From Algoriphagus sp. NG3 (GTDB taxonomy: Bacteria > Bacteroidota > Bacteroidia > Cytophagales > Cyclobacteriaceae), in assembly GCF_034119865.1 (NCBI RefSeq), contig NZ_CP139421.1:2356001-2420000 (forward strand): DNA of 64,000 nucleotides, written 5' to 3'. How positions within the stretch are numbered: position 1 is the first letter of the stretch; each line of letters starts with the position of its first letter. The translations under genes and the position numbers were made by a program. Positions 369 through 38,532 of this stretch are shown here, in pieces. The notes under the pieces are model-generated. The model was not told the origin of the DNA. It saw only the letters and a program-made list of their open reading frames with translations, and searched no databases.

Positions 369-1337
369 ATGGAAAAGACATTGGATTTAAAATTCAACTA
401 TACAGAAAAAAAAGATACACGCTCAGGATTTGGTGATGGCTTTCTGGAAGCCGGACGTAAAAATCCGAATGTGGTAGGACTTTGTGCTGATCTGATCGGT
501 TCATTGAAAATGGGAGCATTCCAAAAGGAATTCCCTGAAAGATTCTTCCAGACAGGTATCGCAGAAGCCAATATGATGGGCATTGCTGCCGGACTGTCCA
601 TAAACGGGAAAATTCCTTTCACCGGGACGTTTGCCAATTTCTCAACCGGACGTGTATATGATCAGATTCGGCAATCGATCGCATACTCCAGCAAAAACGT
701 AAAAATCTGTGCATCCCACGCGGGGTTGACGCTAGGAGAAGATGGTGCAACACACCAGATTCTGGAAGATGTGGGTATGATGAAAATGCTTCCTCATATG
801 ACAGTAATCAATCCTTGCGATTACAATCAGACTAAAGCCGCAACCATTGCTATAGCAGATTATGAAGGGCCGGTATATTTACGATTTGGGCGTCCTTCCT
901 GGCCGATTTTCACTGATCCGGCTCAGAAGTTTGAGATTGGCAAGGCTTGGAAAATGATCGAAGGAACTGATGTGACTATTTTCGCAACTGGTCATTTGGT
1001 ATGGGAAGCAGTAGTAGCTGAGGCTATGCTGAGAAACGAAGGAATTTCTGCTGAGGTGATCAACATCCATACGATCAAGCCATTGGATGAAGAGGCTATT
1101 TTAGACTCTGTGGCCAAAACAGGGTGCGCAGTGACTGCTGAGGAGCATCAGTACAATGGTGGGCTTGGTGACAGTGTGGCACAGACGTTGGCCAGACATA
1201 ATCCGGCACCGGTGGAATATGTAGGTGTAAATGACAGCTTCGGTGAGTCAGGAACCCCTACCCAGCTATTGGACAAGTACGGACTGGACGCAGCGAATAT
1301 TGTAGCGGCTGCCAAGAAAGTGTTGGCTAGAAAGTAA
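369..1337 (+). CDS. transketolase, C-terminal subunit
   Basis: A 322-residue pyrimidine-binding plus C-terminal domain subunit that pairs with the upstream N-terminal subunit to transfer two-carbon ketol units between sugar phosphates. The family hallmark FQTGIAEANMMGIAAGLS, with the conserved glutamate that activates thiamine diphosphate, is near residues 57-74. The transketolase C-terminal domain runs from about residue 190 to the end (GHLVWEAVV, GGLGDSVAQ, GESGTPTQLLDKYGL). Split transketolases of this size are common in Bacteroidota and Archaea. The family resembles 1-deoxyxylulose-5-phosphate synthase C-terminal halves, but the two-subunit arrangement favours transketolase. A MITE-like element begins 3 bp after the stop and separates the gene from its terminator. 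Confidence 0.95.
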   Translation: MEKTLDLKFNYTEKKDTRSGFGDGFLEAGRKNPNVVGLCADLIGSLKMGAFQKEFPERFFQTGIAEANMMGIAAGLSINGKIPFTGTFANFSTGRVYDQIRQSIAYSSKNVKICASHAGLTLGEDGATHQILEDVGMMKMLPHMTVINPCDYNQTKAATIAIADYEGPVYLRFGRPSWPIFTDPAQKFEIGKAWKMIEGTDVTIFATGHLVWEAVVAEAMLRNEGISAEVINIHTIKPLDEEAILDSVAKTGCAVTAEEHQYNGGLGDSVAQTLARHNPAPVEYVGVNDSFGESGTPTQLLDKYGLDAANIVAAAKKVLARK

Positions 1338-1339
1338 AA

Positions 1340-1627
1340 TAGGGCATGCTGAAAAACGCCAGTAATAAATCAAAAGCTATCATTTCGAATGATTAACCCT
1401 TTTTTCATGCGTAGGGTTTTTAAGCAAGTGCAAGCTTATTGAGGAGAATAGGCCTTTATCCATGCATCAGAAAATCTCAAAGTCGAGATTTTCGGGCTAG
1501 TCTCAGGCATACCATCTTCTATGTTGGCCTCATTCGAGGTATCATCATACATCTTTACTCGGCCGCCTTGAACCTGCCTGTCCGGTAGGCAGGCCTGGCA
1601 TACCTGAGACTTTTTCAGCAAGCCCTA
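1340..1627. mobile_element. MITE-like element, family 1, copy A
   Basis: A 284-bp non-coding element bounded by imperfect 16-bp inverted repeats, AGGGCATGCTGAAAAA (1341-1356) and TTTTTCAGCAAGCCCT (1611-1626), with TA at each outer edge as expected for TA-targeting IS630/mariner-type elements. Copies B (9476-9742) and C (38379-38532, truncated) share most of the interior. It carries a nested palindrome at 1573-1593 that copy B lacks. No transposase is encoded, so mobility would need one supplied in trans. The TA may be part of the inverted repeat and not a true duplication. Confidence 0.75.
1573..1593. repeat. nested REP-like palindrome (CCTGCCT ... AGGCAGG)
   Basis: Two 7-bp complementary arms around a 7-nt loop (GTCCGGT). 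Copy B of the surrounding element reads straight through this point (CCTTGAAACTGGCATA), so the palindrome appears as an insertion of about 21 bp. Related palindromes lie at 1771-1791, 3064-3082, 15149-15168 and 31156-31178. Confidence 0.7.
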
Positions 1628-1677
1628 AAATAATCAGGATGCAGCTTCTGCGGAAGCAACATAAACCATAAATAGAT

Positions 1678-2287: not shown

Positions 2288-2827
2288 ATGATCAAACTAA
2301 CTGAAGACCTGAGTATTGCCAGGATAAATCCTGAAGAACAGCCTGAATTGATAGAGCTGATGAAGGAAATCTATATACCTTCCTATAAACATATCTGGTC
2401 AGATGATGGGAAGTGGTATTTGGATCAGATGTACAACCCAGAGATTTTCAAACAGGATCTGGCTAATCCAAACAGTCATTATTACTTTGTCCTCTATGAG
2501 GGCTGGAGAATAGGCGTGCTTAAATACGATTTTCCCGAATCTCCGGAAGTAGTACACTTTCCCAATGCTCTCAAACTGCATAGATTATACCTGAGCAAGG
2601 ATTATCAAGGCCGGGGTATAGCCGCCCAACTTATGAGATGGGTGGAAGCCGTGGCCAGAGAACGAGGCCTTCAATACATGTGGCTGGAAGTGATGGACAC
2701 TCAGCTGCAGGCGCAGAAGTTTTATAGAAAAGTGGGGTTCGAATGGATCTTTACCTACCACTTGGATTATACGAAAATGCTCAGCAAATACAGGGGAATC
2801 CAGATTTGGAGAAAATCGCTGAATTGA
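2288..2827 (+). CDS. GNAT-family N-acetyltransferase
   Basis: A 179-residue cytosolic protein of the GCN5-related acetyltransferase fold, expected to transfer an acetyl group from acetyl-CoA to an amine. The acetyl-CoA-binding motif A is visible near residues 98-120 (LHRLYLSKDYQGRGIAAQLM, with Q-G-R-G-I-A as the pyrophosphate loop). Motif B follows with LEVMDTQLQAQKFYRKVGFE. The substrate cannot be read from sequence. The ATG at 2288 gives the usual family length. The gene stands alone between repeat-rich gaps, so it has no operon context, and it may be accessory. Confidence 0.9.
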   Translation: MIKLTEDLSIARINPEEQPELIELMKEIYIPSYKHIWSDDGKWYLDQMYNPEIFKQDLANPNSHYYFVLYEGWRIGVLKYDFPESPEVVHFPNALKLHRLYLSKDYQGRGIAAQLMRWVEAVARERGLQYMWLEVMDTQLQAQKFYRKVGFEWIFTYHLDYTKMLSKYRGIQIWRKSLN

Positions 2828-3933: not shown

Positions 3934-6900
3934 TTAATCCATTTCAGTCAAGGCGCTCTTTAATTCCAAAACAACGGTTCTAACAGTATCTGACTTTTCA
4001 GCTGATATCCTGTTCAATATAGCTTCAATAATTTCCAACTGCTCTATTTCTGCTTCTTTATGCCCCTTATGTCCCGCTTTCTTCCAAAGCATACTATAAG
4101 CATCTGTTACACTTTCGGTTCGTAGCGACGATTTACTTATAAGGAATGTAGTTAGCGTCAGACCTGCGTAATGGGCTATAGTCCAATAGTCATCCGAGTC
4201 TTTTATGTTTTGGGAGTAATCCTCATAAATTTTCTTCAAGGAAGTCAATCCTTCTTTCTGGGCTTTACTTAAATAGGTTTTCCGTTCTAACCACATTTTT
4301 AGCCGGAGAAGAACCAGCCAGTTGCAGAGCGGGTACGGATCTGAATTATTGCATCTTTCACTTGCTGATTGGTAAGCTGAAATGGCAAGATCCAAAGCCT
4401 CAAAATCTTCGTCGCCTCCTAGTAAAGTAAGCTGAAGTTTTCGTTTATAGGCACTTCCAAGAAGAGAAATCCTATTCCCTGTTTCCCCCAATAATCTACT
4501 CAAATCCAGTAGCTCCTGAATGACCGTCTCAATCACTTCCAGTGCCTTATCTATTTCAAGTTTTTTATCAACATATTGTCTCACTGCAAGCTTAGCCCGG
4601 ATATTACAATATTGCTCAAAAGCTCTCACAGAGTAACCTGCTCTTTCGGACTCAAATAGTTTCCTGTAACTAGCGCATGCCTTGCCATAATCCGTAAGAC
4701 CTGCGTAGATTCCTGCAGCCAATTCCAGAATTTTACTGCTGCTTCTGGACTTTTCCACTGCAATCCTATACATCTCCTCTACCCTAGTGCTTACATAGTC
4801 GTGGTCAAATTCATTTGCTGACATTAATTCAAGCAGATTCTCCAGTTCAATCTCAATCTCCTCCATACAAAGATCCTCATTCAATGAATCTCCTGCCCCA
4901 CCTATTATCAATTTAAAAAATGGATCTCCATAGCATTGAAACGCACCCCAGGTATTGTTTTTAAATTTTTTGAATATGGTTCTTCTAGCCTCTTTTATAG
5001 CTTTTCCAAACCCATATCCGGCAAACATGTACTTGTAAAACACCATGGAAAACTCCAGGGCCGCAGCATCATCCACTGCCCAGCCGGCCACTATAACAGC
5101 ACGCGCTCCATTATTGATGAGTTGGGTACCTATATTGGCAGCAAACTTATTGCTCTGCTGACTCATGAGCTCTGCAGAATTATCCATTTGACCCAAATAG
5201 CAGCAGTTTACAAACACTAACTCAGCAGAGGAGCTCATCCCTGCTATTTGCCCTGGAGTGAGAAAGGTATTGTGGCCGATCACCATTCCCGTGGAATTCT
5301 TGTCTCCATAGCGGAATACACCATGCCCAGCGAGGTGTATGATTTTATGGTTTTTGGAAAACAATGCCATGACTATATCCGGGGCATAGGCATTGATAAG
5401 GCTTATTGTTTGATAATCCTGACGTCTAAGTATAGTGCCTACCGCCTCCGCTTCTTGTCTAGCTCCGGGTAATTGAGTCATATAGCCCTCAAGAATAGGA
5501 TCTCCAATGATCAGCGCTGTGGGCTCAGGTACTTTCGCTATTTTCATACGGGAGTGGGAAGTAGCCAATTGTCTTACCATGCCCATATTTACGCAGAGTG
5601 GATCTGAATCCACACTCTCCATCAGCATCTCCCAAGGATAAGCTGCTGTAGCCCCATCCACAACCCAGTTGATGTTATTCAACTGCTTTATCAGTTCCTT
5701 GAACTGGAATGGGATCAGTAGCTCAAACATAGCTTTTGCTATTTCAGGAGAAAATTGATTTCTGGTAGTCATCTGCCTGAGTAAAATATCAAGGGTTTGG
5801 TCACTAGATGGTATATGTTCTACTTTTTCGCTTGCTCCGTCTGTTGTAATCGCCATCCTGATCATCTCCATATTTTCATCCTGGTGATAATTTCTGTTAA
5901 CCAAGCTTATGGTGATTCTCGTCCACCAGTCTAAGGAATTGTCCACCGGAATTCTTCGCTGTTTGCCCAAGCTGTATTTAAGCCCATTGGCATGGAAAAC
6001 AATATTAAAGTCTTTCTGACTATCTGAGCTTAAACGTTGGACAGATTTCAGGATTGTAAGAGCTCTATCGTGGTAGAGCTCTATGATTTCCACCTCCTCT
6101 ATCCCCCGTATACTTCCTTTGTAAACCTCATATATATTTCTATTCGCCCTCTGCACACCTGTTAAAATCGCCCTGATCGAACTTTCTATGGAAAGGCCTC
6201 CAAAATTGTTGGCTATGGCGATAAATGATATACCATTAAGGCTAAAATCCTGACGGGAGTCAGCTTCGGGATCTTGTTCTTTCTTAATAGTAAGATACCT
6301 AGAGACACCTTTTTCAACCGAATTGATGAGGTAATAGTTGGAAAGCTCTCCCTGAGGCCCTAACCCAATAATAACACCCCCTTTGAAAGTCGAATGTAAG
6401 GTAGAGCCACTGAGAACAGTCTGGCTGGAACCAATAGCGCCAGGATACAAGCCTAACGCATGTAATCTGCTAAGTTCCCAATTAAGATGTTTATCAATGG
6501 CACGCTCTGCATTGAGAATAGCATCGTTTTCGAAATGCCCCGCCACTACTGGATATTTGGAATATTTCAGATCCCCATGCGTCACTAGGACATTTATTGG
6601 TTTCTCATCCTGCCAGGTTTCTTCCTCTTGATGAATACCCAGTATGGTAGCTACTAGGTTTTCCTCAGAGATATCGAATACTTCCATTTCCTGAGGAACA
6701 AAGCTTTCCTGATCCCCTCTGCTTGTCGGCAAGCTATTTTGAAGCCTTTTTGTACTTCCAAAAATCAACAATTCCTCAATGGCTGTGAAAAGGTTTTTCT
6801 CTTTTGACAGATTGCCGTGCGTGACATTGGCATAATACACTTGATTGCCCGCCCTCATACTTTTAGGGATTCCTGAGGCCCAGGTGACGGATTCGTCTCC

Positions 6901-9315
6901 CTGATTGGTGGCGTAGAACACGAGTTTCCCCTCTTCTATGGCCAGATTGGAGACTGTGAAATTTTTCTTGCCGCTTTGCCCTGCGATGTAGGTGAAATTA
7001 GAAAAATCTATATCGTCGTTCTTTTTCCAAATCTCCTGCTGATGCGCTCCAAATTCCGTCAATATTTCCTTGGAGGGGATAGGCCAATCCTCATCCCCAA
7101 AGGCCGTACGCATCTTTTCCCATAGTTTGATGTCCGAAAAATCATATTGTCCTTCAGGGTCTATAGGAAGTAGGTTCAGGATACCGGGGAAATTACAGAA
7201 GATCCCAAGCAGCTCTTTGGTGCTGTGCTTGATATCTATTTTCCCCAATAGTTTGATGAGGCTATCCTTCCCGAAGAGAACATACGGAATCCTGAACGAA
7301 CCGCCCAAAGGTGACCCGAGAAATACTCCGCGAAATCCAGCTGATTTATTCAGTTTCTGCCAGGTGTCCCCGTGATAAATACTAAAGTCCCTAACCAATA
7401 CCCCACCCATACTATGGGCTACTATTTTTATTGGCTGGTTTTTGGCCAGCAAATCCTTAACTCTCAGATCAAACGCAGCCGCGGTTTCCTTGAGTGGTTT
7501 TCTCCAATCAAACTGAAAAGTGACCACGTCATAAGTTTTGGCTAGGCGCTCACCCAAATTCCGGTAGGAAGTCTTGATAAGCGAGTGTGCCGTTAGCTCA
7601 CTCACTGGTTGGGGAAAAAGTGCCAATTCCGCTAATTGACCTTTAAAAAAACCTAGGTAATCTATCCATACCAGGTCATTATTTCCCTTAGGGACATAAG
7701 CCTTCCTGCCGATGTTGGAACCCATAATCCCAGGAATCAGTAATAAAACCGGCTTATTCCCACTGACGGTGTCCTCTAGGTAAGAACCGTGTTCAATCCC
7801 CAAAATCCCACGTTTTTTGGATTTGCTTCGCAGGGTGAATTCAGCTGGGATCACACCTGGGTCTGCTGATATTCCTGCAACTACCGCATTTAAAGTAGTG
7901 GGAGTACAGAAGTACTTGAAATGGTCAATTTTACCGCTTTGTTCTATAAAGATGCCCACTTGATCATCATTCCTGCGGGATCCCCATTTCATACTTTCCG
8001 TATCAACGACCAGATCATTTTTTCCCCTGAAGAAAAACTTACCCAGAAGCACCACTAGGGTTTTGAAACTCACGCTCAACTCTGAACTTCCTCCTACTAC
8101 TAGGAGAGGAAAGTTAATCTGTATATCAGAACTTTGGTTATTTAACACCTTGATAAATGGAGACTTAGGATTCATGGATTCAAGCCCCGGAAGAACATCC
8201 ACATCGTCCTTGCAAGCCACTGCTTCCATTATAAATTCCTTGAAAGCCACAAAAATTGGGTTGCCCACATGTCCTACTGCAAGACCTATAAGATTGAAGG
8301 TGACATTTAGGTAAATATTCAGCCTATTGGATGCCAAAGTGGTACCGTTTGCCGGCCCCGCCACACGGACCATTGAACGGACTCTTATCCCTCTACCAGT
8401 TATATTTTCTCTGATTTCCCTGATTACCTCCCGGTCTCTTATCCGGTCAGATTTCAGCAAGAGTGCGTCTTCGACCGGATCAAACCCCATAGGATCCGCA
8501 CAAAATCTAGCCAAAAGCTCTGCCAAAAGCCCTCCTCGTGATTGGCTCAAAAGATCCAGTTCTATGTTATCCGGAAGACTCTTCACCAAGCCCAGAATAT
8601 TTTCCAGTGGACTGGCTGTCAGTGATCTATGCTGAAAAGCCAGCAAATTCCCTTCTTTATACTTAGATGATTGACTACTACCATCAAAAAGATTCCGCCA
8701 ATCCCCTGAGTCTTTCAGATCTCCGAAGGAATTTTGGGTGGAAGAGGCTGTACCATGAAGCAACAATAAATAAGGGGAAGAAACATCGATCTTGGCGACA
8801 CCGGAAGGGTCAAATTCCAGACTACTCAACTCGATAGCAGTCGAACATCTAGTTAAGACCCCAAATTGTACCTGCTGATATTCCACTCCAGGAAAAGCCA
8901 GTTGTTTATTTTCCAGATTGGTAGCCATCTCCCGAATCTTGGGTTTGATGATTTTCTTTTTGACAAAAATCTTTACCAGTTTAATACCAATTTTCTTAAA
9001 AATGCCCCTATCCTGTTGATCAGATTCCAATTCATCAGGCAGATAGAATTCATCCCCATCGGCTGATCGCTTGACATCCTTGGGAAAAAGTGTGCGGATA
9101 GTCTCACTATCCCCCATCCATACGGTATCGTCCTCAAACTCAAACTCGATGATGGTCTGCTCGTCCATCTCAATGTTTTGCTCGGGGACATCACCCCTGG
9201 TAGGACTGACCACTGTAAAAGCCTGGCGAAGCCGGTATAAACCAAAGCCTGAGTCCTCACCCGTCACATAGGGAAGATGATCCTGTCCTTTAAGCTTTAT
9301 CTTCAAAATAGCCAT
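3934..9315 (-). CDS. CHAT-domain protein with two alpha/beta-hydrolase modules
   Basis: A 1793-residue protein without a signal peptide, so probably cytosolic. Module 1 (about 150-400) is hydrolase-like: LLLLHG with H187, then S-Q-S259-R-G-G, a GxSxG-type nucleophile elbow with Ser for the first Gly. Module 2 (about 515-790) is PGAP1/lipase-like: PGIMGS at 528-533, then A-H-S635-M-G-G. A middle region (about 900-1080) has THGDLKYSKYPVVAGHF with H927, then GVIIGLGPQGEL. I read it tentatively as macro- or M17-N-like. The CHAT domain (about 1245-1410) keeps the caspase-like His (LAGHG, H1331) and Cys (NCCYLG, C1372). The C-terminus is helical and TPR-like. Known CHAT proteins include proteases in bacterial conflict and cell-death systems; that role here is inference. 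Alternatives are a lipase or a regulator. The gene stands alone among repeats, with a perfect 15-bp inverted repeat upstream. Confidence 0.85.
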   Translation of the reverse strand: MAILKIKLKGQDHLPYVTGEDSGFGLYRLRQAFTVVSPTRGDVPEQNIEMDEQTIIEFEFEDDTVWMGDSETIRTLFPKDVKRSADGDEFYLPDELESDQQDRGIFKKIGIKLVKIFVKKKIIKPKIREMATNLENKQLAFPGVEYQQVQFGVLTRCSTAIELSSLEFDPSGVAKIDVSSPYLLLLHGTASSTQNSFGDLKDSGDWRNLFDGSSQSSKYKEGNLLAFQHRSLTASPLENILGLVKSLPDNIELDLLSQSRGGLLAELLARFCADPMGFDPVEDALLLKSDRIRDREVIREIRENITGRGIRVRSMVRVAGPANGTTLASNRLNIYLNVTFNLIGLAVGHVGNPIFVAFKEFIMEAVACKDDVDVLPGLESMNPKSPFIKVLNNQSSDIQINFPLLVVGGSSELSVSFKTLVVLLGKFFFRGKNDLVVDTESMKWGSRRNDDQVGIFIEQSGKIDHFKYFCTPTTLNAVVAGISADPGVIPAEFTLRSKSKKRGILGIEHGSYLEDTVSGNKPVLLLIPGIMGSNIGRKAYVPKGNNDLVWIDYLGFFKGQLAELALFPQPVSELTAHSLIKTSYRNLGERLAKTYDVVTFQFDWRKPLKETAAAFDLRVKDLLAKNQPIKIVAHSMGGVLVRDFSIYHGDTWQKLNKSAGFRGVFLGSPLGGSFRIPYVLFGKDSLIKLLGKIDIKHSTKELLGIFCNFPGILNLLPIDPEGQYDFSDIKLWEKMRTAFGDEDWPIPSKEILTEFGAHQQEIWKKNDDIDFSNFTYIAGQSGKKNFTVSNLAIEEGKLVFYATNQGDESVTWASGIPKSMRAGNQVYYANVTHGNLSKEKNLFTAIEELLIFGSTKRLQNSLPTSRGDQESFVPQEMEVFDISEENLVATILGIHQEEETWQDEKPINVLVTHGDLKYSKYPVVAGHFENDAILNAERAIDKHLNWELSRLHALGLYPGAIGSSQTVLSGSTLHSTFKGGVIIGLGPQGELSNYYLINSVEKGVSRYLTIKKEQDPEADSRQDFSLNGISFIAIANNFGGLSIESSIRAILTGVQRANRNIYEVYKGSIRGIEEVEIIELYHDRALTILKSVQRLSSDSQKDFNIVFHANGLKYSLGKQRRIPVDNSLDWWTRITISLVNRNYHQDENMEMIRMAITTDGASEKVEHIPSSDQTLDILLRQMTTRNQFSPEIAKAMFELLIPFQFKELIKQLNNINWVVDGATAAYPWEMLMESVDSDPLCVNMGMVRQLATSHSRMKIAKVPEPTALIIGDPILEGYMTQLPGARQEAEAVGTILRRQDYQTISLINAYAPDIVMALFSKNHKIIHLAGHGVFRYGDKNSTGMVIGHNTFLTPGQIAGMSSSAELVFVNCCYLGQMDNSAELMSQQSNKFAANIGTQLINNGARAVIVAGWAVDDAAALEFSMVFYKYMFAGYGFGKAIKEARRTIFKKFKNNTWGAFQCYGDPFFKLIIGGAGDSLNEDLCMEEIEIELENLLELMSANEFDHDYVSTRVEEMYRIAVEKSRSSSKILELAAGIYAGLTDYGKACASYRKLFESERAGYSVRAFEQYCNIRAKLAVRQYVDKKLEIDKALEVIETVIQELLDLSRLLGETGNRISLLGSAYKRKLQLTLLGGDEDFEALDLAISAYQSASERCNNSDPYPLCNWLVLLRLKMWLERKTYLSKAQKEGLTSLKKIYEDYSQNIKDSDDYWTIAHYAGLTLTTFLISKSSLRTESVTDAYSMLWKKAGHKGHKEAEIEQLEIIEAILNRISAEKSDTVRTVVLELKSALTEMD

Positions 9316-9475: not shown

Positions 9476-9742
9476 TAGGGCATGCTGAAAAACGCCAGTA
9501 ATAGATTAAAAGCTTTCATTTTGAATGATTAGCCCATTATTCATGCGAACGGTTTTTCAGCAAATGCAAGCCTTTTGACTACAATAGGTATTTATCCATG
9601 CACCGGAAACTCCCAGGACCGTGATTTTGATGCTAGCCTCAGCCATACCATCTTCTTCGTTGGCCTCATTCGAACTATAAGCATACATCATCACTCGGCC
9701 GCCTTGAAACTGGCATAGCTGAGACTTTTTCAGTAGGCCCTA
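9476..9742. mobile_element. MITE-like element, family 1, copy B
   Basis: Shares the left inverted repeat AGGGCATGCTGAAAAA (9477-9492) exactly with copy A and ends in TTTTTCAGTAGGCCCT (9726-9741), with TA at both outer edges. Interior blocks match copy A (GTTGGCCTCATTCGA, CACTCGGCCGCCTTGAA). It lacks the nested palindrome and so shows the empty site. Non-coding. Confidence 0.75.
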
Positions 9743-10807: not shown

Positions 10808-13800
10808 TTAATTTCTGTCCTCGTAGGCCGGCCTTGCAGGCATTTTAAAGCGATCAGTACTGTTTAAAAGCCGTAGAACTTCCTGAATTGCCGCTTCTAG
10901 CTGGGCATCAGTACCCTTAGCCAGGCTTTCAAAATCCTCAACCACTTCCAAATCTGGATCTACCCCATAACCTTCTTTGAACCAGGTACCATCAGGATCA
11001 TACATCCTAAAGGTAGGTACAGTCACCGAACCGCCGTCAATCAAACTTGGGGCTCCGGAAATACCGATCAGCCCTCCCCAGGTGCGGGTACCGATGAGTG
11101 GACCGATTTCTCTCTTGCGGAAATAGTCCGGGAATGCATCTCCTCCAGAACCAGAAAACCCGTTGATAAGCATCACCTTGGGACCAAAGTTTCCAGAAGG
11201 TGGCCATGCCCAATCCTGCCCGTCACGAACTGCCCAGAATGCAAGAGGCTTCCGATCAAGTAGCTCTACAAATCGATCGGGAATCTGACCTCCATTATTG
11301 AATCGCTCATCGATGATCATTCCTTCTTTTTCCATTTGCCCATAGAACTGACGGAACAATTCATTCTGGCCATCAACTCCAGTACTAGGCACGAAGATGT
11401 AGCCGATCTTCCCGTCCGTGGCCTCATCCACCCTGGTACGGAAACCATTGATCCAGGACAGATTACGAAGCCTGGCTTCAGACCTTAGTGGCTCCACCAA
11501 CACAGTTTTAGCTCCGTTTTGTGAGGCTGAACTGTTCACTGTAAGTTGAACAGTTTTCCCAGCCAGTCCCTGGAAGGCGGCAAAAATGGATTTACTGGTA
11601 TCAATAGTCTGGCCATTGACTGCAAGTATATAATCCCCTTCTTTCACATCCACACCCGGTCTGCTTAGCGGTGAGCGTACTTCGACATCCCATGGAGCTC
11701 CATTGATGATCTTCGCAATTTTATAGGCTCCATTTTCCAGGGTGAAATCAGCTCCAAGATAGCCTACAGAAAGGCTTGGTCCGGAATCCAAGTCTCCTCC
11801 ACCATTGTAGGTGTGGGAAGCGTTAAGCTCGGCGATCAAGTCGCCAATGATGATGTTCACATCTCTTCTGGAGCCAGCCTGGTCAACTAATTCGCCGTAG
11901 CGATTTCGCATCAGATCCCAATCTACTCCATGCATAGTAGAATCATAAAAATAGTCCCTTTCGAATCTCCAAACATCATTGAAGATCTGCTTCCATTCCT
12001 CAGCAGGAACAACTGTCATCTGCATATCGGCCAGAGGTACGGTTTCCTCGATTTTCTGTCCCGGAGCCGGATCTATTACGGCAAGTTTTCCTTGGGAGAA
12101 AACCATCACCTTTTTCCGGTCAGCAGAAAGTGAAAAGCCACCCACTCCATCGATCACGGTCTTGGATTCCTCCTCTTCAAAGTCATACAATTCCAGTTTG
12201 CTTTTTGATCCATCCCCTTCCCCGGTGTTGGGATAGCGAACATATAAGAGTTTACCTTTAAGCGAAGCTAGACCACCTATGTTGCCGGAAGGGATGTCCA
12301 GCATCTCTATCCTATTCTCGAATGCAGTGGTTTCGAACGCTATTCCTTTGGGCTCTTCCTTCTCCTTCTTTTTCCCGTTTTCCTCTTTCTCTTCTGCCTT
12401 CTCCTCTTCCAGATTGATCTCGTCATTTTCAAGAGCTATCAGAGAAGGAATTGAGTTATCCAAAGTTCCCACAGCCACTCCAGTGGTATTGGAATAGATA
12501 AACGTATTGTCTAAATCCGAATATTGGGGATCAAAGTTCCTGTTGGTGGTAAAGAAAAGATACTTCCCGTCTTCACTGAATGTAGGATTCTGGTCAGCAT
12601 AGAAACCCGAGGTGATTTGTGAGGTTTTGCCAGATTTAGTATCAAAAACGTACAGTTCAGCAGTAGCTCTGTTTTTCTTAGAGAGGCTATAAGCTACGTA
12701 TCGATTATCCGGAGACCAGCTTACACTAAAACCCTGGAGATTACCTTCAAACATATACTTTCCTTGATCTATCACTTGAACAACTCCTGAGATAGCATCT
12801 ATCAGCATAACTTGCATTGCCTGGTTGACGCTCACCATATTTTTACTGTCCGGAGACCAGTAGATGTTGTACCCGAAACCTTTCTTGAAATTGGTCAAAG
12901 TCTTGGTTTCGCCGTCAGCAGCCAATGATTTAGTGGTCAGTTGATATTCACCGGTAGCATCTGACCAGTAGGCGATTTTTTTGCCATCAGGAGCTATTTC
13001 AGGATATCGCTCAGCCACTCCAGAGGTATTGCTCAGGTTGGTGACAAAGCCTTTCTTGGCTGGAAGGTTAAAGATCTCACCCCGTGCGTTGGCGATGACA
13101 CGGTTTCCATCAGGAGAAATACTGGCCGACATGAGACCTGACTCCACACTTACGATTTTGGGGATCATAGGCTTTTGGTCTGAAATGATCTGTATCTCTA
13201 CTCGCTTGGACTGCCCGGAAGCCAGGTCAAAGAGGTATAAACTTCCTCCTGCCTCAAAAACGATCTCTTTATCACTATTGGAGGGGAATGTGATATCAAA
13301 ATCAGTAAACTCGGTCAACTGGATGTTTTCTTTGGTTTTAAGATCATATTTCCAGAGGTTGTTTCTCTTCTCCGGTCCATTATCAGACATGTAATATACC
13401 GCATCACCTATCCACATGGGCAGTTCATCGTTGGCAGCGTTGTCTGTGATGTTCTCAGTTTTATAAGATGTCAAATCAAAAATAAGTATGTCAGGTGCTG
13501 TTCCCCCACGGTACCTTTTCCAATTGCGGTTTACCCTACTTCGGTCAGTGTACGCAAACTTCTTCCCATCTGGAGAATAAGACGCAAACTCACCATATGG
13601 CACGGGCAGCTTGCCAGGCAATCCTCCAGTCACTGGTACTGTATAGAATTGATTAAAGCGCTCCTTGCCACTTTCCCTTCCTGAGGTAAACAAGATGGAT
13701 TGTCCATCAGGAGTCCAGCCCTGCACATAATCAGGCATACCATGATAAGTAAGACGGGTAGGCACTCCTCCAGAAGCTGGCATTACATACACATCAACAT

Positions 13801-14053
13801 TTCCATTGTAATTGGCAGAAAAAGCAATCTGCTTCCCATCCGGAGAAAATCTTGGATACATTTCAGGTCCAGCGGGGGAAGTGAGCCGCTGGGCGACGCC
13901 CCCTTCTTTGTCCACTACCCAAATATCGTCTCCGTAGGTGAACGTAATTTGTGTTTCTGATACATCGGGCAACTGCATTAGCCTGGCGTCCGTTTGGGCC
14001 TGACTTAGCATGGGACTTGCCATAATAGACAAGCAAAGAATAAGTTTTCTCAT
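10808..14053 (-). CDS. tricorn-like S41 family serine protease
   Basis: 1081 residues with a cleavable signal peptide (about 1-19, ending SQAQ), so the enzyme is exported to the periplasm. Order: beta-propeller repeats of the TolB/WD40 type (about 25-540, recurring PDGKKI-type strands); a charged linker rich in E and K (about 545-575); the tricorn core; a PDZ-like region (GDYILAVNGQ, about 805); and the S41 catalytic domain. Tricorn catalytic positions are conserved: S746-H747 in NASHTY, and nucleophile S969 in GFSGSGGDAFPDYF. The numbering nearly equals that of Thermoplasma tricorn (S745, H746, S965). The family degrades peptides of proteasome-product size; the role in Bacteroidota is not established, and general periplasmic peptide turnover is my inference. 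Confidence 0.93.
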   Translation of the reverse strand: MRKLILCLSIMASPMLSQAQTDARLMQLPDVSETQITFTYGDDIWVVDKEGGVAQRLTSPAGPEMYPRFSPDGKQIAFSANYNGNVDVYVMPASGGVPTRLTYHGMPDYVQGWTPDGQSILFTSGRESGKERFNQFYTVPVTGGLPGKLPVPYGEFASYSPDGKKFAYTDRSRVNRNWKRYRGGTAPDILIFDLTSYKTENITDNAANDELPMWIGDAVYYMSDNGPEKRNNLWKYDLKTKENIQLTEFTDFDITFPSNSDKEIVFEAGGSLYLFDLASGQSKRVEIQIISDQKPMIPKIVSVESGLMSASISPDGNRVIANARGEIFNLPAKKGFVTNLSNTSGVAERYPEIAPDGKKIAYWSDATGEYQLTTKSLAADGETKTLTNFKKGFGYNIYWSPDSKNMVSVNQAMQVMLIDAISGVVQVIDQGKYMFEGNLQGFSVSWSPDNRYVAYSLSKKNRATAELYVFDTKSGKTSQITSGFYADQNPTFSEDGKYLFFTTNRNFDPQYSDLDNTFIYSNTTGVAVGTLDNSIPSLIALENDEINLEEEKAEEKEENGKKKEKEEPKGIAFETTAFENRIEMLDIPSGNIGGLASLKGKLLYVRYPNTGEGDGSKSKLELYDFEEEESKTVIDGVGGFSLSADRKKVMVFSQGKLAVIDPAPGQKIEETVPLADMQMTVVPAEEWKQIFNDVWRFERDYFYDSTMHGVDWDLMRNRYGELVDQAGSRRDVNIIIGDLIAELNASHTYNGGGDLDSGPSLSVGYLGADFTLENGAYKIAKIINGAPWDVEVRSPLSRPGVDVKEGDYILAVNGQTIDTSKSIFAAFQGLAGKTVQLTVNSSASQNGAKTVLVEPLRSEARLRNLSWINGFRTRVDEATDGKIGYIFVPSTGVDGQNELFRQFYGQMEKEGMIIDERFNNGGQIPDRFVELLDRKPLAFWAVRDGQDWAWPPSGNFGPKVMLINGFSGSGGDAFPDYFRKREIGPLIGTRTWGGLIGISGAPSLIDGGSVTVPTFRMYDPDGTWFKEGYGVDPDLEVVEDFESLAKGTDAQLEAAIQEVLRLLNSTDRFKMPARPAYEDRN

Positions 14054-38353: not shown

Positions 38354-38378
38354 CAGGCCTAACGTACGAAACTGTAAC

Positions 38379-38532
38379 TAGGGTCATGCTGAAAAACGCA
38401 ATAATAGATTAAAAGCTATCCTTTTGACTGATTAGCTCATTTTTCATGCGTGTGGTTTTCAGCAAGTGCAAGCTTTTTGATGAAAAGAGGTCTTTATCCA
38501 TGTATGAGAAAATCCGAAACAGGGATTTTCAC
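38379..38532. mobile_element. MITE-like element, family 1, copy C (truncated)
   Basis: Left end AGGGTCATGCTGAAAAACGC with TA before it, and interior blocks shared with copies A and B (ATAGATTAAAAGCTA, TTTATCCATG). The right half, with its inverted repeat, is missing. Similarity stops about 7 bp from the stop codon of the HMG-CoA lyase-like gene. Confidence 0.7.

Follow-up and report, generated by a model that had tools for sequence, protein, structure and literature searches.

A CHAT caspase-like protease fused to two lipase-like hydrolases in Algoriphagus sp. NG3, a candidate TIR-linked immune effector

What might a bacterium do with a single polypeptide that joins a caspase-like protease to two lipid or ester hydrolases? 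The question is raised by a gene of Algoriphagus sp. NG3 (Bacteroidota; Cyclobacteriaceae), whose genome is assembled as one contig of 5.89 Mb. The gene lies in a stretch of 64,000 nucleotides (assembly GCF_034119865.1, contig NZ_CP139421.1, positions 2,356,001 to 2,420,000), which is referred to here as the window. An earlier note, made from the letters of the window alone, had described a protein of 1,793 residues at 3934..9315 in which a CHAT protease is fused to two alpha/beta-hydrolase modules. The open reading frame (ORF) is indeed intact, with 1,793 codons and an ATG start, and lies on the minus strand, which the note had left unstated. We consider that the protein is a TIR-linked immune-type effector, with a probability of about 0.65, and set out below the modules and active sites of the protein, the TIR genes found beside some of its relatives and the alternatives to this reading.

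Five modules follow one another along the chain (table 1). Pfam profiles match DUF7379 (residues 183-269, E 1.3e-26, 94.1 bits against a cut-off of 33), CHAT PF12770 (residues 1192-1464, E 5.9e-25, 88.7 bits against 24) and TPR-S PF20308 (residues 1542-1670, E 3.4e-13, 50.5 bits against 27.6), together with LCAT, which lies barely above its cut-off (residues 596-717, E 1.5e-4, 21.6 bits against 21). By fold comparison, hydrolase 2 resembles lysosomal phospholipase A2/LCAT at 15-19% identity, the CHAT domain matches SAVED-CHAT, caspase-7 and MALT1 (SAVED-CHAT 8tl0 being the top Foldseek match), and the C-terminal TPR-S domain finds its nearest solved structure in the central regulatory region of ASK1, an animal kinase; the VIA-align rows bear chiefly on residues 514-858 in the first model and, in the second, on residues 43-241 and 393-613. 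The CHAT, LCAT/PGAP1-like and DUF7379 assignments of the earlier note are upheld by both profile and fold, and what it called a helical C-terminus can now be identified as TPR-S. Its unclassified middle domain can be given a class, macro/M17_N-like. The M17 N-terminal assignment holds by fold, and by profile in relatives only: neither the Peptidase_M17_N nor the macro profile matches the window protein itself at E<=1 in Pfam, while Peptidase_M17_N scores above its cut-off in relatives P0192, P0203 and P0238 and below it in P0173 and P0113. A search of the window protein against NCBIfam gave no match, nor did a search with it as a single sequence against the PDB. The idea of a secreted toxin was rejected, since no signal peptide is visible by eye and the highest mean hydropathy over 19 residues in the entire protein is 1.48.

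Table 1. Position of the gene, its modules and its neighbours in the window.
Feature	Residues	Coordinates	Strand	Basis
Whole gene: DUF7379 - LCAT/PLA2-like - macro/M17N-like - CHAT - TPR-S		3934..9315	-	ORF and Pfam
Beta-rich conserved N-terminal region without family match	1-165	8821..9315	-	
Hydrolase 1: DUF7379, alpha/beta-hydrolase fold, proposed triad S259/D434/H465	166-500	7816..8820	-	
Hydrolase 2: LCAT / group XV phospholipase A2-like, proposed triad S635/D807/H833	512-862	6730..7782	-	
Middle domain: macro-domain / Peptidase_M17_N fold	904-1102	6010..6606	-	
CHAT caspase-like protease, dyad H1331/C1372	1192-1466	4918..5742	-	Profile, invariance, fold
TPR-S sensor-type domain: ASK1 central-regulatory-region fold	1483-1793	3937..4869	-	
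Flanking gene, presumed acetyltransferase-like, 179 residues, outside the system		2288..2827	+	
Flanking gene, presumed tricorn-like protease, 1,081 residues, outside the system		10808..14053	-	

All three putative enzymes keep their active sites. In an alignment of the window protein with 59 homologues, H187-G-T, S259, D434, H465, S635, D807, H833, H1331 and C1372 are invariant in all 60 rows, including the two serines (in SQSRGG and AHSMGG) and the CHAT dyad at the positions noted earlier; the Asp and His residues would complete the two serine triads, to judge from their conservation and order. In a larger set of 266 sequences (240 listed proteins, 25 fetched loci and the window protein), the catalytic set is kept in 171 of 183 sequences for hydrolase 1, 172 of 180 for hydrolase 2 and 259 of 266 for CHAT. 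The remaining cases have a gap at one position, except for one G-D-P, and the CHAT His-Cys dyad is gapped at Cys in seven sequences and substituted in none.

The modules are combined in different ways across relatives. Among the 266 sequences, a mix that is shaped by the two queries used and includes some truncated short sequences, 156 have all five modules and 52 have only the middle domain, CHAT and TPR-S, to which 22 add hydrolase 1 and 17 add hydrolase 2; a further 11 consist of CHAT and TPR-S, five lack TPR-S only and three take other forms. The N-terminal architecture changes at least 16 times on a tree of the middle-CHAT core. This tree holds 73 of 245 usable rows, namely listed proteins from contigs longer than about 20 kb and the fetched loci, the contig filter being applied because short-architecture labels may include further truncated genes; the labels of P0192 and P0169 come from partial hydrolase matches, L121_5 is omitted and several end branches are long. 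In 72 of 500 shuffles of this tree, the TIR label is clustered at least as strongly as observed. The hydrolase pair, used as a query, retrieved 52 proteins, of which 47 were new; 31 of these 47 have no CHAT match, and all but one of the 31 stop no more than 90 residues beyond the last matched module, the other (P0251) having a 168-residue tail without a family match. The core thus occurs without the lipases, whereas the lipases hardly occur without the core, nearly all of the CHAT-less proteins looking truncated. A natural split between hydrolase and protease genes in Salmonirosea aquatica (P0257, P0173) was considered and dropped, because P0257 stops abruptly inside hydrolase 2; these two are likelier a broken second copy, the intact one being P0118, whose contig has the same length as theirs. 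Among other variants, relative P0113 has pYEATS fused at its own N-terminus, and a 2,191-residue version from another family (L139:7697-14272) carries about 400 extra residues after TPR-S, which give no Pfam match at E<=0.01. Two shorter relatives (L083, L084) have hydrolase 2, a diverged middle domain and CHAT, and are without DUF7379 and TPR-S; in both genomes, which belong to the phylum and lie outside the class, the neighbouring gene is one that we take to be thioredoxin-reductase-like.

The link to TIR proteins comes from 21 full-length loci outside the genus, 12 from one family and nine from another. A TIR_2 gene lies within 5 kb in six of the 21 (0.20 expected) and within 10 kb in seven (0.33 expected), where the expected values derive from random placement, which is blind to clustering of TIR genes, and TIR was picked out after the neighbours had been seen. 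From the first family, the count omits G609 and G712, which have the short form, and G694, G715 and G726, in which a contig end cuts the gene (five genomes in all), and contig ends conceal part of the neighbourhood in G591 and G687. The spacing is close in several cases: TIR genes lie 5 bp downstream (L110), 10 bp upstream (L111) and 18 bp downstream (L119), a ThsB-type TIR is found 394 bp downstream (L087) and TIR is the second gene downstream in L116, while in L133 a CHASE2-TIR protein is encoded 288 bp upstream, with TIR, pYEATS-TIR and patatin genes also nearby. The other recurring neighbours are FAD_binding_4-type genes (four loci), a family of about 410 residues (four loci; PG_binding_1 in the two members scanned) and patatins (two loci). 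Comparison of neighbourhoods, as proposed in the earlier note, has thus found recurring partners in relatives, TIR foremost, and this recurrence points to immunity; the statement that the gene has no visible partner holds for this window and fails for some relatives. The FAD_binding_4-type genes are oxidase-like and, in two families, lie no more than three genes away from the orthologue (L116:12749-14269, L111:4522-6024, L135:14255-15859, L137:14447-16063), the gene in L111 being assigned by BLAST only.

Within the genus, an association is seen in trans. A TIR domain like that of the L111 partner is present in 24 of 25 genomes that carry the gene versus eight of 34 that do not. Among the 39 better genomes, the figures are 21 of 22 versus seven of 17 (p 2.6e-4); a subset matched for size gives 15 of 15 versus seven of 15 (p 0.002), both p values being uncorrected for kinship. 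At about 0.99 Mb, the window genome encodes such a protein, 358 residues long, in which a membrane segment is apparent by eye.

Several observations weigh against the reading as a TIR-linked effector, in addition to the two features of the neighbour count given above. No TIR_2 gene lies within 5 kb at 15 of the 21 outside loci, and for none of the 24 full-length genus copies does the same contig hold a TIR_2 or ThsB match within 100 kb, although draft contigs may conceal one. In the window genome the nearest such matches are more than 1 Mb from the gene, and TIR_2 and ThsB matches are both absent from one carrier (G036). Counting any TIR_2 domain gives a weak association among the better genomes (21 of 22 versus 11 of 17, p 0.03, again uncorrected for kinship). 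The PADLOC models gave nothing of weight, the sole match being to PDC-S05 (E 0.025, 27 residues), and one genus group has the gene next to transketolase and acetyltransferase genes, among the same conserved neighbours.

Much of this would suit a non-immune enzyme of stress response or envelope maintenance, which would remodel lipids with built-in proteolysis and be inherited mostly vertically, its TIR neighbours reflecting chance or a defence-island effect. We regard this alternative as unlikely. It is favoured by the conserved neighbours in one genus group, by the native GC content of the gene (0.435 versus 0.426 for the window, by which a recent foreign insert was also rejected on composition) and by the TIR counts just given for the genus and the outside loci, but it has to contend with TIR linkage well beyond random placement, and TPR-S and CHAT domains are typical of conflict systems. 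It also has to contend with the distribution of the gene. A protein search returned 464 homologues at E<=0.001, the best 120 of which are all near full length, and a second search returned relatives named under Anaerolineales, Acidobacteria, Nitrospirota and Pseudomonadota as well as many Bacteroidota. The genus sample of 59 genomes holds 24 full-length copies and one cut by a contig end, with weak CHAT matches only in two further genomes; a close genome, Algoriphagus sp. AGSA1, encodes a protein that is 88% identical. The 24 copies have open frames of 1,776-1,831 residues with no stop within the match, and an artefact of assembly or fusion was rejected on this ground. In a family sample of 148 genomes, where no more than three candidates were scored in each, the near-full-length match is in the window's genome only and the others are partial, mostly to CHAT. 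A phylum sample of 395 genomes gave seven matches at E<=1e-30: the gene itself, one from the same genus, three that are full-length and come from two other families, and a shorter pair (hydrolase 2 and CHAT, no DUF7379 or TPR-S). Samples of those two families had matches in 17 of 150 and nine of 199 genomes. From the counts in genus, family and phylum, the gene is widespread but patchy.

Gene order in the genus bears on the same alternative. Flanks were compared at 21 genus loci, from 20 carriers and one additional named strain; the flanking genes are presumed to encode an acetyltransferase-like protein, a tricorn-like protease and a transketolase. In 11 of the 21, the acetyltransferase-like gene is the first or second gene downstream, with the tricorn-like gene upstream in seven of these 11, and at the remaining loci the gene sits at other places. 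Carrier G024 and non-carrier G025 have an identical order (transketolase, acetyltransferase-like, a gene of about 515 residues, tricorn-like) save for the CHAT gene, and non-carrier G030 has the three named genes in order with another gene between. Ten non-carrier loci were compared in all: G025 and G030 have all three flanking genes in order, G021 has the acetyltransferase and tricorn-like genes, and at the remaining seven loci the acetyltransferase and tricorn-like genes are not adjacent. The orders in G024, G025 and G030 imply gain or loss of the gene at fixed sites; because their flanking acetyltransferase and tricorn-like proteins are 34-43% identical to those of the window, gain or loss is seen at a slot of this kind and not at the window's exact site. 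A consistent housekeeping context, which the earlier note had named as a ground for refutation, is thus found in one genus group, but presence is patchy and G024 and G025 differ by the CHAT gene. The note's repeat-rich accessory stretch is likewise half right: dispersed intergenic repeats do occur, but part of the genus has conserved genes on either side. These repeats, of about 140-310 bp and 78-91% identical, lie at window positions 1336-1645, 9476-9742 and 38376-38514, two copies forming direct repeats around the acetyltransferase-like and CHAT genes; a further copy is at about 3.55 Mb.

If the protein is a TIR-linked effector, its action can be outlined in steps, all of them conditional. 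An activated TIR protein would make a signal, for which an ADP-ribose-type nucleotide is the likeliest candidate; we give this identity slightly less than even odds. The macro-like domain, the ASK1-like TPR-S domain or both would sense this signal and gather copies of the protein, and gathering would switch on the CHAT protease. The protease would then free or activate the two N-terminal hydrolases, in cis or between adjacent copies, and may cut further proteins; attack on membrane lipids would kill the infected cell, and the system would thereby act in phage defence. We place the general scheme, a TIR-signalled cytoplasmic effector that kills the infected cell by means of a single polypeptide, at even odds, and put forward the gating of the lipases by the protease only tentatively. 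Burroughs and Aravind reportedly predicted in 2020 that TPR-S domains read NAD-derived signals, and related these domains to ASK kinases. In published work, type IV Thoeris is described as using a TIR-made ADP-ribose-type signal to activate a caspase-like protease (PMC12847820), macro domains of another Thoeris type as binding ADP-ribose and oligomerising (PMC11204291), and a protease as unlocking a proenzyme in other defence systems (PMC12799240).

A TIR-type signal could instead activate three independent warheads under one sensor, with the protease and the lipases attacking the cell directly and no gating between them. The variation of the hydrolase modules over a constant macro-CHAT core and the conservation of all three active sites are consistent with this arrangement, which we nonetheless think quite improbable, since a hydrolase pair without CHAT nearly always looks truncated, suggesting dependence on CHAT, and protease-activated proenzymes have precedents (PMC12799240). 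That CHAT acts chiefly in trans on separate partners, such as the recurring FAD oxidase-like, peptidoglycan-binding and patatin neighbours, with the fused hydrolases as sensors of lipid damage, is very improbable, as by BLAST none of these families lies beside the 19 genus loci compared and the conserved serine triads argue for catalysis.

The preferred reading, a TIR-linked immune-type effector, can be set against known systems. Hydrolase 2 shares its fold and conserved Ser-Asp-His set with lysosomal phospholipase A2/LCAT and Tle4, and differs from them in being fused to a protease, with no visible export signal. The TPR-S domain is common to TPR-S conflict proteins, and its fold to the ASK1 central regulatory region, whereas the window protein is bacterial and has no kinase. 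The signals for Craspase/Csx29, SAVED-CHAT and Borvo are RNA-guided or cyclic oligoadenylate, and we know of no fused hydrolases in any of them. The likeness to Craspase/Csx29 (TPR-CHAT), SAVED-CHAT and Borvo (PMC11417357; for Borvo, PMC10952713) lies in the CHAT protease, which in the first two adjoins a sensor. Type IV Thoeris (PMC12847820), compared by description, has in common a caspase-fold protease and the TIR genes beside some relatives; in contrast, the window protein is CHAT by profile and carries two hydrolases, a macro-like domain and TPR-S on the same chain. No TIR shares an operon with the window gene, and even outside the genus close TIR genes are confined to the six loci above. 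Because there is no same-operon TIR here, we do not class the window system as Thoeris; it may work like Thoeris. Macro-domain Thoeris (TM-macro ThsA; PMC11204291) also has a macro-fold domain, as does the window protein with its TIR-linked relatives, which differs in having no visible transmembrane part, in its protease and lipases, and in relatives that match Peptidase_M17_N, not macro, by profile. In the open-access library searched we found no paper on DUF7379 or PF20308/TPR-S and no description of the CHAT-dihydrolase architecture, of which an earlier account is possible, key subscription papers lying outside this scope. The protein may be a new TIR-linked caspase-like effector variant with built-in lipases and an ASK1-like sensor.

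Elsewhere in the window genome, at about 3.537-3.545 Mb (L122:7118-9575, L122:13574-14958), two clusters each have a Peptidase_C14 caspase gene directly adjoining a ThsB-type TIR and look like type IV Thoeris-type pairs. At about 224-232 kb (L123:4654-12174) lies a gene for a 2,072-residue protein with two CHAT matches, preceded by genes that are presumably sigma factor-like and anti-sigma factor-like.

That the family forms a new class of TIR effector, in which a macro-like and ASK1-like double sensor would drive a caspase-like protease and through it two phospholipases, the window lineage answering a distant TIR, is a doubtful proposal at present. The operon-like TIR pairs of L110, L111 and L119, with gaps of 5-18 bp, offer two-gene test systems. 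If the proposal were true, the cutting of proteins and of lipids, which animals divide between caspases and separate membrane-damaging pathways, would come together in a single bacterial switch controlled by TIR. This would amount to 'caspase-gated lipolysis' in one chain, with a sensor fold common with the animal cell-death kinase ASK1, and the ASK1-like C-terminal fold would allow a bacterial origin of that signalling module to be tested.
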